From: JAUWCW01 sp030609125 [NCBI: Candidatus Rokuibacteriota bacterium]
GTDB lineage: Bacteria; JAUVQV01
Length of the DNA: 5,947 nt
Direction: 5' to 3'
NCBI GenBank assembly: GCA_030609125.1
Contig: JAUWCW010000134.1
Coordinates: 1-5,947, forward strand
Position numbers and translations under genes: made by a program. The number at the start of each line of letters is the position of its first letter. The stretch's first letter is position 1. Positions 558-5,947 of the stretch are shown here, one piece after another. The notes beneath the pieces were generated by a model. The model was not told the origin of the DNA and searched no databases. It was given only the letters and a program-made list of their open reading frames with translations.

Positions 558-826
558 TTGTTCAGCGAGCCGGGAGTCCGGTGAAGGTCGGGGAGCTGGT
601 CATCATCCCCCTGGAGAGAATGAGCCTCACCGCGTCGGGGAAAAGCGACGGTCTGCGGGGATACGCCTTCCTGTATCCGGCAGGCGTCGCCGTTCTTTCC
701 CGCGCGGGCGTGGAGGTGCTGAACGAGAGAGGGGAGCGGGTCCCGACGGAAGCCTGCCTGGAAAAGACCAGGGGACTGCGGGAGGCGATCACTTCTTCTT
801 TTCGCCCTTATTCTTCTCCTCGATAA
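554..826 (+). CDS. small GerW/YtfJ-like protein
   Basis: This 90-residue protein starts at GTG 554, which overlaps the upstream stop as GTGA and has GGAG at 542-545 with an 8-base spacer. An ATG at 485 in the same frame would add 23 residues, but it overlaps the upstream gene by 73 bases, has no visible ribosome-binding site, and adds only a polar, Pro/Gln/Gly-rich leader. The core reads 'GSPVKVGELVIIPLERMSL', then a short polar stretch, then 'GYAFLYPAGVAVLSRAGVEV'. This resembles the GerW (YtfJ) pattern: G-[DS]-P, a 'viiPv' strand, and a later hydrophobic strand with 'Gv.vl'. It lacks the glycine-rich central segment common in that family, so it is a divergent member at best. YtfJ in Bacillus is tied to spore germination, but relatives occur in non-spore-formers with unknown roles. 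The last 38 bases overlap the end of phoU on the other strand. Confidence 0.58.
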   Translation: MIVQRAGSPVKVGELVIIPLERMSLTASGKSDGLRGYAFLYPAGVAVLSRAGVEVLNERGERVPTEACLEKTRGLREAITSSFRPYSSPR

Positions 827-1499
827 TACTCATGTGGCGGATATCCTTGCCCTTGACCATGAAGATCACCATCTCGGCGATGTTCGTGGCGTGATCGGCC
901 ATCCGTTCCAGGTACTTGGAGATGAATGTCAGGCGTGTCGCCCGGGTGATGGTCTTGGGGTCCTCCAGCATGAAGGTCAGAAGCTCCCGGAAGACCTGCT
1001 CATTGAGGTTGTCCACCACGTCGTCACGGGCGGTGACCTGCGTGGCCAGCTGATCGTCCCGCCTGAGAAACGCCTCCAGTGAATCCCTGATCATCGACGT
1101 GGTGGCCTCGGCCATTTTCGGCAGGTCCAGATAGGGCTTGAGTTGGGGCTCCTTGTTGAGCTCCAGGGTCCTCTCGGCGATGTTGACGCACAGATCGCCC
1201 ACACGCTCCAGGTCGGTGGTCACCTTCAGGGCCAGGGTGATGAACCGCAGGTCGCTCGCCGCGGGCTGACGCAGGGCGATGATGTTGAGGGACATCTCGT
1301 CGATTTCCACCTCGAGGCGGTTGATCTCGTGGTCGAACTCGATCATCTCCCTGGCGAGATCCGAATCCCTCTCCACCAGAGCTTGCATGGTCTGGTCGAT
1401 CATGTCGACGAGGCGATTGCCCATGGCCAGGATCTTCTCCCGCAGGGCCTTGAGCTCCCTCTCGTACTGTTTGCTGATGTGCCTCGCGTTCGTGGGCAT
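789..1499 (-). CDS. phoU: PhoU, phosphate signalling regulator
   Basis: This 236-residue, highly helical, charged cytoplasmic protein has the two tandem three-helix repeats of PhoU. The metal-binding E-x-x-x-D motif appears in each repeat: 'DLERVGD' (E98/D102) and 'YLERMAD' (E198/D202), exactly 100 residues apart and each followed by 'NIAE'. In known systems PhoU binds metal clusters, contacts PstB and the PhoR sensor, and keeps the Pho regulon off when phosphate is plentiful. Length is near the family norm (about 215-240). The ATG start is well supported by GGAGG at 1505-1509 with a 5-base spacer, in the 18-base gap after the second pstB. It is the last gene of the operon, its usual place. 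The C-terminus ends in a lysine/glutamate-rich tail (last 10 residues). Its final 38 bases overlap the convergent small gene; no intrinsic terminator is visible beyond it. Confidence 0.96.
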   Translation of the reverse strand: MPTNARHISKQYERELKALREKILAMGNRLVDMIDQTMQALVERDSDLAREMIEFDHEINRLEVEIDEMSLNIIALRQPAASDLRFITLALKVTTDLERVGDLCVNIAERTLELNKEPQLKPYLDLPKMAEATTSMIRDSLEAFLRRDDQLATQVTARDDVVDNLNEQVFRELLTFMLEDPKTITRATRLTFISKYLERMADHATNIAEMVIFMVKGKDIRHMSIIEEKNKGEKKK

Positions 1500-1517: not shown

Positions 1518-2273
1518 TTATCCGAACCGGCCGGTGATGTAGTCTTCCGTCATCTTGTTGGCGGGCTTGGTGAAAATGGTTTTCGTTCTGTTGAATTCTA
1601 TCAGACGACCGAGGTAGAAAAAACCCGATTCGTCGGAAATGCGGGCGGCCTGCTGCATGTTGTGGGTGACGACGACTATGGTGTAGTTCTTCTTCAGCTC
1701 CAGCATCAGCTCCTCGACACGCAGCGTCGAGATCGGGTCGAGGGCCGAACAGGGCTCGTCCATCAGCAGCACTTCGGGCTCCACCGCCGCCAGGCGCGCG
1801 ATGCACAGGCGCTGCTGCTGCTCGCTGGTGAGAGTGAGAGCGCTGCGCTTCAGGTCGTCCTTGAGCTCGTCCCAGAGGTGGACCGCCTGGAGGCTCCGCT
1901 CCACCACCCCCTCCAGGGTCCCCTTGTCCCGGACCCCGTGCACCCTGGGGCCGTAGGTTATGTTGTCGTGAATGCTCAGGGGAAAGGGGTTCGGCCTCTG
2001 AAAGACCATGCCCACCCGCTTGCGCAGCTTGATCAGCTTGTAGCCCGGCTGATAGATGTCCTCCCCGTCCAGAAGGACCTGTCCTTCCACTCTCGTGCCG
2101 TCCACCAGGTCGTTCATACGATCGAGTGTCTTGAGAAGGGTGGTCTTGCCGCATCCCGACGGCCCGATGAAGGCCGTTATCCGGTGCTCCTTGATCCGCA
2201 GGCCCACTTCGTGGAGGGCCTGGAAGTCCCCGTAGAAGACGCTGAGGTTCTTCACCTCGATCTTGGCGGGCAT
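1518..2273 (-). CDS. pstB: second phosphate ABC transporter ATPase (PstB2), altered signature motif
   Basis: This 251-residue ABC ATPase would drive PstC-PstA from the cytoplasmic side. It has an A-loop Tyr14, Walker A 'GPSGCGKTT' (37-45), Q-loop 'MVFQRPNPFP' with Gln92, Walker B 'VLLMDEP' with Asp172 and catalytic Glu173, D-loop 'SALDP', and switch His204 in 'VVTHNMQQA'. The PstB-specific 'QQQRLCIAR' block and the C-terminal 'DYITGRFG' identify it as PstB rather than another ABC ATPase. What is odd is the ABC signature: it reads LTSEQ (148-152) where PstB normally has LSGGQ, so both central residues that contact the ATP gamma-phosphate across the dimer are changed. Start ATG 2273 directly abuts the TAG of the first pstB (zero gap), with an AAGG about nine bases upstream. 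It is a paralogue of the preceding gene and probably its heterodimer partner. A homodimer would have two altered signatures and may be weak. Confidence 0.94.
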   Translation of the reverse strand: MPAKIEVKNLSVFYGDFQALHEVGLRIKEHRITAFIGPSGCGKTTLLKTLDRMNDLVDGTRVEGQVLLDGEDIYQPGYKLIKLRKRVGMVFQRPNPFPLSIHDNITYGPRVHGVRDKGTLEGVVERSLQAVHLWDELKDDLKRSALTLTSEQQQRLCIARLAAVEPEVLLMDEPCSALDPISTLRVEELMLELKKNYTIVVVTHNMQQAARISDESGFFYLGRLIEFNRTKTIFTKPANKMTEDYITGRFG

Positions 2274-3062
2274 CTAGCCGAACCTTCCCGATATGTAGTC
2301 GTCCGTTCTGCGGTCGCGGGGAACGGTGAAGATCTGTTTCGTCCTGCCGTACTCCACCAGCTCTCCCATGAGAAAGTACGCCGCCTTGTCGGAAACCCGG
2401 GCGGCCTGCTTGGTATTGTTCGTCACGATGATGATGGTGTACTTGCTCTTCAGCTCGCTCAAGGCCTCCTCGATCTTGAGGGTCGAAATGGGATCGAGCC
2501 CCGAACAGGGCTCGTCGAGAAGAATGACCTCGGGGTCGAGCGCCAGCGTCCTGGCTATGCAGAGGCGCTGCTGCTGCCCGCCGGAGAGGCGCAGCGCCGA
2601 GGTGCCGAGCCGGTCCTTGACCTCGTCCCAGAGAATGGCCGAGCGGAGGCCGAATTCCACCAGCTCGTCGAGTTTCTTCCTGCCCCGGACGCCGTGGAGC
2701 TTCGGGCCGTAGGCGACGTTCTCGTAGATGCTCCGCGGCAGGGGGACGGGCACGTCGAAGACCATCCCCACGCGACGCCGCAGGTCGTCGGGATCGATCT
2801 CGCCGGAGAAAATGTCTGCCCCGTCGAGGGTTATCGACCCCTTCCGGGACGTACCGGGAAGGGCATCCACCATCCGGTTCAGACACCGCAGCAGGGTGCT
2901 CTTGCCGCTCTGCGCGGGTCCCATGATCCCGAGGATCTCGTTCCTCATGACCGACAGGTTGATGTTCTCCAGCGCGACGCTTCCGCCCTGATAGGCAAAG
3001 CCGAAGCCCTTCACGCGGATCTTCTCCACCTGACCTCCCGTTGCGCCGGGGTCTTCGCTCAC
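2274..3062 (-). CDS. pstB: first phosphate ABC transporter ATPase (PstB1), Q-loop and switch-His replaced
   Basis: This 262-residue PstB-family ATPase has an A-loop Tyr24, Walker A 'GPAQSGKST' (48-56), an intact signature 'LSGGQQQRLCIAR' (159-171), Walker B 'VILLDEP' with Asp183 and Glu184, D-loop 'SGLDP', and the C-terminus 'DYISGRFG'. Two hallmark residues are missing. The Q-loop reads 'MVFDVPVPLP', with Asp103 for Gln, and the switch region reads 'IVTNNTKQA', with Asn215 for His. I checked both codons on the DNA (GAC at 2754-2756 and AAC at 2418-2420). The intact Walker B glutamate argues against simple decay. Start chosen: GTG 3062, overlapping the pstA stop as GTGA, with GAGGA at 3070-3074. 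The alternative GTG 3029 has GGGAGG four bases upstream and would give 251 residues, the same length as its paralogue, so the start is not settled. The role is probably the partner subunit of the second PstB in one transporter. Confidence 0.93.
   Translation of the reverse strand: MSEDPGATGGQVEKIRVKGFGFAYQGGSVALENINLSVMRNEILGIMGPAQSGKSTLLRCLNRMVDALPGTSRKGSITLDGADIFSGEIDPDDLRRRVGMVFDVPVPLPRSIYENVAYGPKLHGVRGRKKLDELVEFGLRSAILWDEVKDRLGTSALRLSGGQQQRLCIARTLALDPEVILLDEPCSGLDPISTLKIEEALSELKSKYTIIIVTNNTKQAARVSDKAAYFLMGELVEYGRTKQIFTVPRDRRTDDYISGRFG
3034..3039 (-). promoter_or_regulatory. alternative ribosome-binding site inside pstB1 5' end
   Basis: GGGAGG on the minus strand lies four bases before GTG 3029. 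It competes with the GAGGA at 3070-3074 that serves GTG 3062, so the first PstB may start at either codon and the leading 11 residues are uncertain. Confidence 0.35.
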
Positions 3063-3898
3063 GAGTACTTCCTCATGATGCGGTGCATCATCCAGTAGGC
3101 CAGAGTATTGATGGTGAGAATGGCGATTATCAGGGCCGCCGCCGTCCCGTAGGCCATGCCGAAGGCGTCGGTCTCGGTGGCCAGAATATAGAAATGGACC
3201 GCCAGAGTCCGCCCGGAAGCGAAGATTGAGGTCGGCGTCCCAAGGGCCGACCCGGCGGTGAAAATGACCGCCGCCGTCTCTCCGATGCATCGGCCCACGC
3301 TCAGCATGATACCCGTCACAATTCCCGGGAGGGCGCCGGGAAGGACCACCCTGGTCACCGTCTGCCACCGGGTGCCTCCGAGAGAGGTGCTCACGTCACG
3401 CCGGTTCTGGGGCACGGCGATTATCGCCTCCTCACTGGTGCGGATGATCGTCGGCAGGACCATGATGGCCAGGGTCAGCCCGCCCGACAGGATCGACCAG
3501 CCGAGTTTGAGAAAGAGCACGAAAGTGATGAAGCCGAAGAGGCCGAGGATGATGGAGGGGATGCCGGCGAGGCACTCGGCGGCGAAACGCACCACCCGCG
3601 TGGCCGCCGTCTCCCGGGTGTACTCGGTCAGGTAGATGGCCGTCCCCACTCCGAGCGGCGTAGCGATGGCGAGAGCCACGACGGTGATAAAGACGGTGCT
3701 CACGATGAAGGGGAAGATGCCGCCGCCCCGGCCGGCATCGACGGCGCCCGTCGACAGGAACTCCCACCCGAGCACGGGCAGCCCCTTCAGGAGAACATAG
3801 GTGATGATGAAAACGAGGATCGACACCGTCAGGGCCGTGAGAGAAACGAGGACCCACCTGACGAGCTTCTGGGAAAGGGCGGGGTCGAGGCGAATCAT
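3059..3898 (-). CDS. pstA: phosphate ABC transporter permease PstA
   Basis: This 279-residue integral membrane protein forms half of the phosphate channel with PstC. It shows about six hydrophobic segments: 15-37, 62-90, a pair around 108-155, one around 195-215, and one near the C-terminus. It carries the binding-protein-dependent permease (EAA) loop, 'SLGGTRWQTVTRVVLPGA', which docks on the ATPase. The 'GRCIGETAAV' element matches the GR-x-x-GE motif shared by PstA and PstC, whose Arg/Glu positions have been implicated in phosphate transport in E. coli. The 'LAGIPSIILGLFGF' segment is also characteristic. Length is close to the family norm (about 280-300). The ATG overlaps the pstC stop as ATGA, and its own stop overlaps GTG 3062 of the first pstB. 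Assignment as PstA rather than PstC rests on the sequence style and on the canonical S-C-A-B order. Confidence 0.95.
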   Translation of the reverse strand: MIRLDPALSQKLVRWVLVSLTALTVSILVFIITYVLLKGLPVLGWEFLSTGAVDAGRGGGIFPFIVSTVFITVVALAIATPLGVGTAIYLTEYTRETAATRVVRFAAECLAGIPSIILGLFGFITFVLFLKLGWSILSGGLTLAIMVLPTIIRTSEEAIIAVPQNRRDVSTSLGGTRWQTVTRVVLPGALPGIVTGIMLSVGRCIGETAAVIFTAGSALGTPTSIFASGRTLAVHFYILATETDAFGMAYGTAAALIIAILTINTLAYWMMHRIMRKYS

Positions 3899-4752
3899 CG
3901 GATCCGCTTCTTTCTCGTCATGCTGGCGACGAGGTTGAGAACCATGATCATCACGAAGAGGACGACCCCCGTCGCAAAGAGCGCCTCCTGGTGATCGCCG
4001 GAGGCGTAGGCCAGCTCGATACCGATGTTGGAAGTCAACGTCCTGATGGAGTCAAGGATCGAGCCGGGGAAAGCAACGGCGTTGCCGGTCACCATGATGA
4101 CCGCCATGGTTTCGCCGATGGCCCGTCCCATGCCGAGAATGACGGCCGTTACGATCCCGGACCGGGCCGCCTTTAGAACTACCATGCTGACGGTTTGAGT
4201 GGTCGTGGCCCCGAGGGCTATGGAGCCCTCCCGGTAGGATTGCGGCACCGCCTCGAGGACGTCGATGGAGATGCTGATGATCGTCGGCAGGATCATGATG
4301 CCGAGGATGATTGATCCCGCCAGGAGCGACAGGCCCGGGCCGCCGAGGTGCACCCTGATGAGGGGCACCAGCAGGATGACGCCGAGAAACCCGTAGACGA
4401 CGGAGGGGATGCCGGCGAGGAGCTCGATGGCGGGCTTGAGAATCCGCCTGACCTTCGGCTTCGAAAACTCGACGAGGAAGACGGCGCAGGAGAGCCCCAG
4501 GGGGACGCCGATGACGAGCGCCCCGCCCGTCACGAGCAGGGAGCCTACCACCATGGGGAGGATCCCGAACTCGCCCTTCGTGGGACGCCATTCGACGCCT
4601 CCCAGGATCGTTCCCAGGCCTTCCCGGAAGATGAAGGGGAGCCCCTCCTTGAAGATGAAGAAGGTGATGATGAAGAGGATGGCGATGGAGGAGTACGCTA
4701 TTACGAGAAGACCCTTCTCGATGAGCTTCTCCATCGACCGTGCGCGGCTCAC
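3895..4752 (-). CDS. pstC: phosphate ABC transporter permease PstC
   Basis: This 285-residue inner-membrane permease pairs with PstA. The first membrane segment is at about 15-34, followed by a periplasmic loop with 'GVEWRPTKGEFGILP', a PstC hallmark, and five further hydrophobic segments. 'ELLAGIPSVVYGFLGV' and the EAA loop 'SIALGATTTQTVSMVVLKAA' are clear, and 'GMGRAIGETMAV' holds the GR-x-x-GE residues implicated in transport in E. coli. The start is a GTG at 4752 that overlaps the pstS stop as GTGA and follows a G-rich site (GGGGG) four bases upstream. An ATG six codons later (4734) is possible but has no visible ribosome-binding site. It overlaps pstA at its end (ATGA). Nothing in the protein departs from the family. 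Confidence 0.95.
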   Translation of the reverse strand: MSRARSMEKLIEKGLLVIAYSSIAILFIITFFIFKEGLPFIFREGLGTILGGVEWRPTKGEFGILPMVVGSLLVTGGALVIGVPLGLSCAVFLVEFSKPKVRRILKPAIELLAGIPSVVYGFLGVILLVPLIRVHLGGPGLSLLAGSIILGIMILPTIISISIDVLEAVPQSYREGSIALGATTTQTVSMVVLKAARSGIVTAVILGMGRAIGETMAVIMVTGNAVAFPGSILDSIRTLTSNIGIELAYASGDHQEALFATGVVLFVMIMVLNLVASMTRKKRIR

Positions 4753-5558
4753 TGTCCCCCCGGAATGAGCCCCTCGGAGGAGAGAAGCTCCTGCCCCCTG
4801 GGCCCCATGATGAAATCGATAAAGGCCTTCGCCGTTCCCGTCGGCTCTTCCCGGGAAAGAAAGAGGAAGGGACGGGACAGCTTGTACTGCCCGTCCATGA
4901 TCTGCCGGCGGGTGGCCTCGGCGCCGTCCACCGCCAGGGCCCGCACCCGATCGTCCACGAGGCCGAGAGAGATGTACCCGATAGACGCCGGGTCGCGGGC
5001 GATGATCTCCCGGACGGCGCCGTTGGACGCCTGCACCAGGGCCCGCAGGGAAATCTCCCGATCGCCCATGACCATCTCCTCGAAGGCCCCCCTGGTCCCG
5101 GAACCTTCTTCCCGGGCGACAAAATGAATGGTGCCCCCCTCACCGCCTATTTCCTTCCAACTCTTGTAGTCGCCGGCAAAAATTCCCGCCACCTCGGCCC
5201 GCGAAAGACCGCGAAGGGGGTTGTCCCTGTGAACGATGACGGCGATGCCGTCGGAGGCGATGGCCGTCTCGTGGAGCCCCTTTTCCTTCTCTTTCAGGTT
5301 CCGGGAGGACATGCCGATCTGGGCAGCGCCGTTCTGGGCCGCCCGGATGCCCGCCGACGATCCGCCGCCCTGAATGTTGATGTTGAACTCCGGATGCCCG
5401 GCCATGAATTCCTCGGCGAGCATCTCCGCGAAGGGCTGGATCGACGTCGAACCCGCCACGGTCATGACGCCGCCGGCGGCATTCGGGTCGGCGCGCTGGC
5501 AGGCAGCAGCGGAAAGAAGGCAGGCTGCGAAAACAAGGATGGCCGCCGTGCGGAACAT
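4749..5558 (-). CDS. pstS: phosphate-binding lipoprotein PstS
   Basis: This 269-residue secreted solute-binding protein captures phosphate for PstC-PstA. It begins with a basic, then hydrophobic signal and a lipobox 'SAAAC' (Cys20), so it is probably lipid-anchored after signal peptidase II cleavage. Phosphate-binding loops are visible: 'AGSTSIQP' (35-42), 'GGGSSAGI' (64-71), 'IGMSSR' (81-86) and 'REEGSGTRGAF' (149-159), the last matching the Arg plus SGT contacts of known PstS proteins. 'SNGAVREII' and 'SIGYISLG' are further family marks. The start ATG 5558 is chosen because it gives a clean signal peptide and has GGAG at 5567-5570 eight bases upstream. The frame stays open to 5621, with another ATG at 5585, but those starts lack a ribosome-binding site and put a charged stretch before the signal. 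It is the first gene after the candidate Pho box and overlaps pstC by four bases. Confidence 0.95.
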   Translation of the reverse strand: MFRTAAILVFAACLLSAAACQRADPNAAGGVMTVAGSTSIQPFAEMLAEEFMAGHPEFNINIQGGGSSAGIRAAQNGAAQIGMSSRNLKEKEKGLHETAIASDGIAVIVHRDNPLRGLSRAEVAGIFAGDYKSWKEIGGEGGTIHFVAREEGSGTRGAFEEMVMGDREISLRALVQASNGAVREIIARDPASIGYISLGLVDDRVRALAVDGAEATRRQIMDGQYKLSRPFLFLSREEPTGTAKAFIDFIMGPRGQELLSSEGLIPGGQ

Positions 5559-5566
5559 CCTGTGGG

Positions 5567-5570
5567 CTCC
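5567..5570 (-). promoter_or_regulatory. ribosome-binding site of pstS
   Basis: GGAG on the minus strand, eight bases before ATG 5558. It fixes the pstS start downstream of the earlier in-frame ATG at 5585, which is preceded by a pyrimidine-rich stretch. Confidence 0.6.
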
Positions 5571-5594
5571 GTCTTGACATTCCATTTCAGGAGA

Positions 5595-5600
5595 ACGATA
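5595..5600 (-). promoter_or_regulatory. candidate -10 element of the pst promoter
   Basis: TATCGT on the minus strand matches four of six positions of TATAAT. It begins nine bases after the last TTAACA repeat, the spacing expected when a Pho box replaces the -35 element. It would place transcription start near 5588 and give a leader of roughly 30 bases before pstS. Weak on its own; supported by position. Confidence 0.38.
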
Positions 5601-5609
5601 GCGCCCCGA

Positions 5610-5637
5610 TGTTAAGTTCACGTTAAGAAGCGGTTAT
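5610..5637 (-). promoter_or_regulatory. candidate Pho box: three 11-bp-periodic TTAAC-type repeats
   Basis: On the minus strand three six-base units follow one another at exactly 11-bp steps: ATAACC (5637-5632), TTAACG (5626-5621) and TTAACA (5615-5610). The last two extend to CTTAACGT and CTTAACAT. The 11-bp periodicity is that of PhoB/PhoP response-regulator sites, and TTAACA with 5-bp spacers is the Bacillus-type PhoP consensus. The array overlaps the last codons and stop of the kinase gene and lies about 50 bases before pstS. The expected regulator is the partner of the kinase, outside the window. The match is by eye, without a genome-wide background. Confidence 0.6.
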
Positions 5638-5947
5638 TTTTTCGGGAAGGAAGATGGTGAAGGTGCTGCCACGGCCCAGGTCGCTCTCGACGATCACGCT
5701 GCCCTTGTGTGCCTGCACGATGTGCTTGACAATCGCCAGCCCCAGCCCGGTCCCTCCCAGCGAGCGGCTCCTTGCCTTGTCGACCCGGTAGAAACGCTCA
5801 AAAAGGCGGCTAAGGTGCTGTGCGGCTATCCCGCACCCCTCGTCGCGCACCTTCACTGTCGCCCAGGACTCGTCCGTTCCGCAGGACACCTCCACGGTGC
5901 TGCCCGGACTGCTGTATTTTACGGCGTTGTCAACGAGGTTGATCACC
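5623..5947 (-). CDS. phoR: sensor histidine kinase, PhoR type, C-terminal catalytic part (partial)
   Basis: Only the last 108 or so codons are present; the gene enters from the right edge, and the GTG at 5946 is internal, not a start. The fragment is a HATPase_c (Bergerat) ATP-binding domain with all boxes: N box 'NLVDNAVKYS' at its beginning, G1 'DEGCGI' (about residue 35), F box 'LFERFYRVDKARS' (about 48-60) and G2 'GGTGLGLAIV' (about 64-73). These mark an active kinase of the class that phosphorylates a response regulator. The sensor, HAMP/PAS and phospho-His parts are off-window. The name PhoR is inferred from the F-box style and from lying 64 bp upstream of pstS on the same strand; the fragment itself would fit other OmpR-class partner kinases. 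It ends at TAA 5625-5623, inside the candidate Pho box. Confidence 0.85.
   Translation of the reverse strand, partial: VINLVDNAVKYSSPGSTVEVSCGTDESWATVKVRDEGCGIAAQHLSRLFERFYRVDKARSRSLGGTGLGLAIVKHIVQAHKGSVIVESDLGRGSTFTIFLPEKITAS

Follow-up and report, generated by a model that had tools for sequence, protein, structure and literature searches.

The window analyzed here, a 5,947-nucleotide stretch of DNA from a Candidatus Rokuibacteriota bacterium (assembly GCA_030609125.1, contig JAUWCW010000134.1), carries a phosphate transport (pst) operon in which two adjacent genes for the ATPase PstB are encoded together with PstS, PstC, PstA and PhoU. The two proteins, PstB1 and PstB2, have lost opposite halves of the motif set of an ATP-binding cassette (ABC) protein. 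Because opposite halves are lost and the pair recurs in distant bacteria, they very probably function only in combination, as an obligate heterodimer of PstB1 and PstB2 in which one ATP site is consensus and the other degenerate.

In an ABC dimer, each ATP site is formed by the core of one chain and the signature of the other. PstB2 has an ordinary core, with Walker A GPSGCGKT, Walker B LMDEP, Q-loop Gln92 and switch His204, and departs from consensus only in its signature, LTSEQ (residues 148–152). PstB1 has an intact LSGGQ signature (159–163), but Asp replaces Gln in its Q-loop (GMVF-D103-VP) and Asn replaces His in its switch (VT-N215-N). Its Walker A (GPAQSGKS) is altered too, its Lys being retained, as is the catalytic Glu of Walker B (LLDEP). 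Neither chain therefore holds the full motif set of two consensus ATP sites, and since each site pairs one chain's core with the other's signature, a mixed dimer would have one whole and one doubly damaged site. For both proteins the top family is TIGR00972, by more than 80 bits over the next; PstB2 scores 382.7 bits, over the cut-off of 343.2, and PstB1 340.9 bits, slightly below it.

We collected relatives by taking as a PstB stretch any match scoring 200 bits or more against a hidden Markov model built from just two sequences, the window's own PstBs. A stretch was assigned to class N if it had the Q-loop Gln, the switch His and Gly-Gly at signature positions 3–4; to class A if Gln or His was lost and Gly-Gly kept; to class B if Gln and His were kept and Gly-Gly was not; and to class X if both halves were damaged. 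Loci L003–L020, which hold other ABC proteins of the window genome, were excluded before counting. Stretches were called unique if their matched strings were distinct, which lets in a few truncated copies of a single gene where a locus ends. The 440 unique stretches comprised 117 A, 121 B, 200 N and 2 X, counts that do not measure prevalence because the loci were mostly fetched with class A and class B profiles. Class A keeps Gly-Gly and class B keeps Gln and His by definition, but neither the near-absence of class X nor the way A and B are paired follows from the definitions. Damage was confined to one half in 238 of the 240 stretches with any loss, and both X stretches are one gene of a single genome (G040), seen once whole and once cut. 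In G040 a divergent A-B pair precedes a second PstA and a third PstB, the latter with a switch Asn and LSNGQ (L058:5042-8257).

Two stretches on the same strand and separated by under 400 bp were counted as a tandem pair. There were 124 unique pairs, of which 101 were A followed by B, 21 were N-N and 2 were N-B; no A-N, A-A or B-B pair was found among the 124. PstA lay directly upstream of class A in 112 of 117 cases. As a control, we searched 151 genomes of Bacilli and read the best 30 loci and 20 further regions; all 64 unique stretches were N, and all 18 tandem pairs were N-N. Both N-B pairs (G624 and G758) belong to a four-genome group with G665 and G780, in which B lies ~2.7 kb upstream of A, which is itself preceded by pstC-pstA. 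In the loci of this group (L323, L324, L325 and L327, with L338–L341), class A has a Q-loop Asp and keeps its His (VPHN), and class B has LTLGQ; these four pst operons possibly represent a less degenerate form of the A-B pair. The original prediction had located complementary motif defects in the tandem genes, and their coordinates, strand and motifs proved correct. It had also expected the losses to be divided between the copies in relatives too, and to yield one consensus and one doubly degenerate composite site rather than to reflect random decay. The counts bear out the division, its recurrence in 101 A-then-B pairs speaks against random decay, and the two predicted composite sites are conserved as a motif split.

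Beyond the residues that define it, class A shows a consistent pattern. The Q-loop residue is Ala in 101 of the 117 sequences (Asp 7, Ser 7, Glu 1, Pro 1), the switch residue is Asn in 111 and His in 6, and every signature ends in SGGQ. Walker A mostly reads GP[AS]xSGK, in contrast to the GPSGCGK of class N, and two residue pairs outside the class definition, the Walker A Lys-Ser/Thr and the Walker B Asp-Glu, are each retained in 116 of 117. A class-A-like PstB that lies before phoU in the Bacillota genome Nt197P4bin8 (L090:2693-3445, and L228) retains neither the Walker A Lys nor the catalytic Glu; a B-like PstB (LTPGQ) is on another contig of that genome. In class B (n=121) the fourth signature residue is Glu in 105, Asp in 8, Gly in 7 and Tyr in 1, and the commonest signature forms are L[TS]LEQ.

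We then located the substitutions in a set of 117 A, 121 B and 136 N sequences, assembled before the Bacilli were added. Among 56 positions at least 98% invariant in class N, eight are lost in most class A sequences, three in most class B sequences and none in both. The eight (A34, S39, G40, C41, Q92, F97, L189 and H204) are kept at 0.84–1.00 in class B, and six of them sit in Walker A, the Q-loop and the switch. The three lost from class B (S149, G150 and G151) all belong to the signature and are kept at 1.00 in class A; class B retains G150 at 0.02 and G151 at 0.06. Q92, H204, G150 and G151 define the classes, and the other seven lost positions play no part in the definition. Mean divergence from class N follows the same division: for A it is 0.38 in Walker A, 0.49 in the Q-loop, 0.44 in the switch, 0.03 in the signature and 0.28 outside the motifs, and for B the corresponding values are 0.01, 0.13, 0.02, 0.37 and 0.25. 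Only an A:B dimer uses both retained halves, which supports the heterodimer.

The two classes also occur together across genomes. We searched 386 genomes drawn across the domain with the class A and class B profiles and read the best loci, so divergent members may hide among lower-scoring matches. Both classes were present in 21 of the 386. Nineteen of these were read completely; the others are the divergent G040 and G239, where a contig end truncates A but leaves its C-terminus visible. In 11 of the 21, the window's genome included, there was no third PstB match at E <=1e-85 among the best seven candidates scored per genome (G000, G039, G057, G083, G148, G184, G200, G257, G286, G353 and G357); for G148, G184, G257 and G286 the second place was not among the matches listed, and G353 and G083 are incomplete drafts. 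Because no third PstB was found there, the A-B pair must be the motor in these 11 genomes. In the window genome (G000), a draft of 376 contigs, all 67 candidates were scored by TIGR00972, and after the pair itself none exceeded 141 bits. The sole other genome of the window's phylum in the collection (G001) has the same pair, with PstB1 72% identical, and an N-type PstB on another contig.

A second set comprised 149 genomes of the phylum to which an 'uncultured Elusimicrobia bacterium' belongs; identical places show that at least three of them were also part of the 386-genome sample. Every class A member was read; class B was called by profile score in 57 genomes and by reading in one more (G525), and middling matches, mostly unread, were taken as N. 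Class A occurred in 58 genomes, class B in 58 and both in 57. The two genes are apart in 9 of these 57 (G404, G422, G448, G454, G460, G468, G475, G489 and G507), so their joint presence is not explained by close linkage alone; contig ends leave the arrangement in G527 undecided. Exactly two matches at E <=1e-90 were present in 36 of the 58 class-A genomes, with G519 uncounted.

The pair occurs in several phyla and is old. A scan of genome contigs gave at least 80 loci, and the A-B pair was present in 8 of these 80. Carriers among the matches listed were a Syntrophorhabdus (Thermodesulfobacteriota), an Elusimicrobia, a planctomycete, a Bacillota, a WOR-1 bacterium, a deltaproteobacterium labelled Myxococcota, an unplaced bacterium (356-284) and an Ignavibacteriae; loci were added from searches of the phylum or class of three of these carriers. 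We built a quick tree from 100 chosen rows (35 A, their 35 B partners and 30 N) after removing the trait columns. Class A was monophyletic (95 by the Shimodaira-Hasegawa-like approximate likelihood ratio test, SH-aLRT), and 30 of the 35 class B sequences fell in one clade (SH-aLRT 92). The B sequences outside it, placed among N, were the long-branched L056_B and four that retain Gly as the fourth signature residue. By eye, several sister groupings recur in the A and B parts of the tree (window/G001; planctomycete/G278; L096/L306/L307; L066/L300; L128/L331), which is what joint inheritance or transfer of the two genes would produce. The pair has thus been kept over a long time.

Several points weigh against an obligate heterodimer. 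Both the heterodimer and the activities of its sites are read from sequence alone. The 101 pairs do not count as independent events, because classes A and B each arose only once or a few times. Members also occur singly in three genomes: G519 has A without B, plus one N; G503 has B without A, plus an N fragment; and G070 has a single odd stretch (L060:1409-2149) with LSVGQ, classed as B by the rule, which is the sole match in its genome, with no partner seen. The surroundings of the Q-loop in the G070 protein are altered as well (LLSQRP). Covariation between the two members, though it looked perfect, adds nothing in favor. In 115 pairs, 14 of them from loci whose B, located at another place in the genome, was assigned by a hand-made table, a switch Asn in A accompanies Glu (100), Asp (8) or Tyr (1) as the fourth signature residue of B, and a switch His accompanies Gly (6); we did not use this as evidence because the tree allows only 1–2 independent changes, and the association is not significant. 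Finally, an AlphaFold model of a run-through PstB1-PstB2 fusion reached a predicted template modeling score (pTM) of 0.54 and lacked the canonical dimer of nucleotide-binding domains (NBDs), and its best two-domain PDB matches had template modeling (TM) scores of 0.42-0.44 with a root-mean-square deviation of about 19-22 A. The fusion was modeled with no linker and an alignment of 10 rows, and for that reason it is uninformative either way. A mixed alignment of the fusion with single proteins placed class A on the PstB2 half and was dropped. The AlphaFold model of PstB1 by itself is confident (predicted local distance difference test 92.7, pTM 0.89), and its nearest PDB chain by Foldseek is E. 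coli PstB (PDB 9k3x, 9k3s; TM 0.88-0.96).

Other explanations of the split can be set against the same data. Recent random decay of a duplicate, or an error of sequencing or assembly, might be suspected in a draft genome of so many contigs, but it is refuted by the relatives, since the same split occurs in more than 100 other class A sequences from separate assemblies and deep clades, and we give this explanation almost no credence. It is highly improbable that the two proteins form separate homodimers, each working with PstC and PstA under different conditions. Tandem PstBs with unequal roles are known, as in Enterococcus faecalis PstB1/PstB2 (available portion of PMC12096839), but an A homodimer would lack the Gln, and mostly the His, at both of its sites, a B homodimer would lack the signature at both, and A homodimers leave unexplained why a signature is kept beside a damaged core.

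A division of labor in which an active PstB2 homodimer, its signature unusual, is the real motor and PstB1 acts as a regulatory pseudo-ATPase, such as a docking partner for PhoU, would fit the greater divergence of PstB1, which falls below the TIGR00972 cut-off. PhoU directly follows B in at least 43 of the 85 A-B pairs with at least 700 bp beyond B (by a single-sequence search), and the class-A-like protein of L090 stands before phoU without its Walker A Lys and catalytic Glu. We nevertheless consider it distinctly improbable: retention of those two residues in 116 of 117 class A sequences, and of the signature Ser149 and Gln in all 117, goes beyond the needs of docking, and class B has almost entirely lost the two signature glycines. 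It is also unlikely that both sites hydrolyze ATP with the substitutions tolerated and that the heterodimer merely fits two unlike permeases. The nearly universal catalytic Glu of class A favors such an arrangement, as do the PstA and PstC coupling-loop residues, which differ between A-B and N operons. Against it, docking would not require a single composite site to lose Gln, His and signature Gly together, and Pdr5, with the similar signature LNVEQ, has an inactive site, although that site also lacks the catalytic Glu (available portion of PMC8421411).

We infer the dimerization, site activities, stoichiometry and docking of the PstB1:PstB2 heterodimer as follows. The dimer would sit under PstC-PstA. 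Site 1, made of the Walker A/B motifs, Gln92 and His204 of PstB2 and the LSGGQ of PstB1, would be fully consensus and would hydrolyze ATP. Site 2, made of the Walker A/B motifs of PstB1 without Gln or His and the LTSEQ of PstB2, would hydrolyze slowly or not at all; it probably still binds nucleotide because PstB1 keeps its Walker A Lys and catalytic Glu, and the Glu or Asp of the PstB2 signature would then face the gamma-phosphate of that nucleotide. About one ATP would be spent per transport cycle, the movement would be asymmetric, and each PstB would be dedicated to one of the two unlike permeases. In PstA, the coupling loop has Ser before a conserved Leu-Gly in 68 of 84 unique loops from A-B operons, compared with mostly Ala (62 of 89) or Gly (20 of 89) at the same place in N operons. 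PstC has Tyr at one place of its loop in 95 of 96 unique loops from A-B operons and in 22 of 85 from N operons, a comparison in which one N-operon entry (L048) was visibly mis-picked. These differences agree with dedicated docking of each PstB, though they could also stem from common ancestry.

A bolder proposal is that the pair marks an unnamed, widespread line of phosphate importers running on a single ATP site, in which the second site, its Gln and His lost from PstB1 and a negative Glu/Asp introduced by the PstB2 signature, is maintained as a non-hydrolytic sensor of nucleotide or energy state and sets import or PhoU/PhoR signaling; we regard this as a rather doubtful possibility. The suggestion in the original prediction that the degenerate site holds nucleotide for sensing through PhoU and PhoR found no support here and remains speculation, and the frequent position of PhoU after B lends it no special weight.

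The genes of the window lie on its minus strand in the order kinase fragment-pstS-pstC-pstA-pstB1-pstB2-phoU. The final 4 bases of pstA overlap the start of pstB1, and the TAG stop of pstB1 immediately adjoins the ATG of pstB2. Two plus-strand frames are convergent to phoU: one at 3-557 with a weak DUF2953 match (E 7.8e-6), and one at 485-826 (113 amino acids) with no Pfam or NCBIfam match at E <=0.001, its only match being at chance level (E 0.19).

Table 1. Features of the pst operon, in window positions.
Feature	Position	Strand	Details
Histidine kinase C-terminal fragment, PhoR/PnpS-type	5623..5946	minus	best NF046044, 155 bits (full-length cut-off 400); cut by window end
pstS, phosphate-binding protein	4749..5621	minus	longest frame (4749-5558 scanned); TIGR02136 225.8 bits, cut-off 206.6
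pstC, permease	3895..4752	minus	TIGR02138 285.9 bits, cut-off 196.45
pstA, permease	3059..3898	minus	TIGR00974 257.4 bits, cut-off 193.45
pstB1, class A PstB	2274..3062	minus	GTG start; D103/N215 degenerate core, altered Walker A, intact LSGGQ
pstB2, class B PstB	1518..2273	minus	intact Walker A/B, Q92, H204; signature LTSEQ
phoU, regulator	789..1499	minus	TIGR02135 235.4 bits, cut-off 130.25

Discussion of degenerate ATP sites has mainly concerned exporters and CFTR, and the reason for their persistence is debated. The same solution would here have arisen in PstB, the ordinary form of which carries all motifs in one chain. If so, symmetric and asymmetric Pst systems coexist in nature and can be compared cleanly, with the same kind of permeases and the same substrate and with two working sites or one. 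The motif test sorts tandem pstB genes into N-N and A-B kinds, and it points to genomes whose only PstB found is the asymmetric pair, many of them small ones from the Elusimicrobia phylum. Importers with an NBD heterodimer include OppD/OppF and EcfA1/A2. Our searches of open-licence PMC papers for PstB and for asymmetric ABC proteins turned up no report of a degenerate or heterodimeric PstB.

The closest known system is E. coli PstSCAB (PDB 9k3x, 9k3s), whose PstB shares family, fold, operon and permeases with the proteins described here. It carries Gln, His and LSGGQ in one chain present in two copies per entry, whereas here the motifs are split over two genes. PstB is likewise given as two copies, with degeneracy unmentioned, in the available portion of PMC7034087. 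The tandem pstB1-pstB2 genes of E. faecalis and other Bacilli similarly place two adjacent pstB in one pst operon, with unequal roles (available portion of PMC12096839), but the Bacilli pairs read here are N-N, and in the window pair neither copy has the full consensus motifs.

The original prediction had likened the layout to TAP, CFTR and TM287/288. The likeness holds for the division of losses: these proteins, with BmrCD and TmrAB, have an asymmetric pair of NBDs in which one site is consensus and the other degenerate. It does not extend to a usual hallmark of such sites. They are exporters or a channel, and every human degenerate site has an altered signature, with replacement of the Walker B Glu by Asp ranking next in frequency (PMC7756269, in part); loss of that catalytic Glu has been called a hallmark of degenerate sites (PMC7544095, in part). 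Here the losses besides the signature are instead the Q-loop Gln and the switch His, and the usual Glu replacement is absent, with DE kept in PstB1 as in nearly all of class A. The signature change looks nearer to that of yeast Pdr5 and the PDR exporters, in which one composite site is likewise degenerate through losses in both NBDs. According to PMC8421411 (in part), Pdr5 has LNVEQ, close to L[TS]LEQ, on the NBD paired with the bad core, and the intact signature VSGGE on the bad-core NBD itself, just as LSGGQ stands on PstB1; Pdr5, however, is an exporter with both NBDs in one chain, and in its degenerate site Asn takes the place of the catalytic Glu, which the Pst pair keeps.
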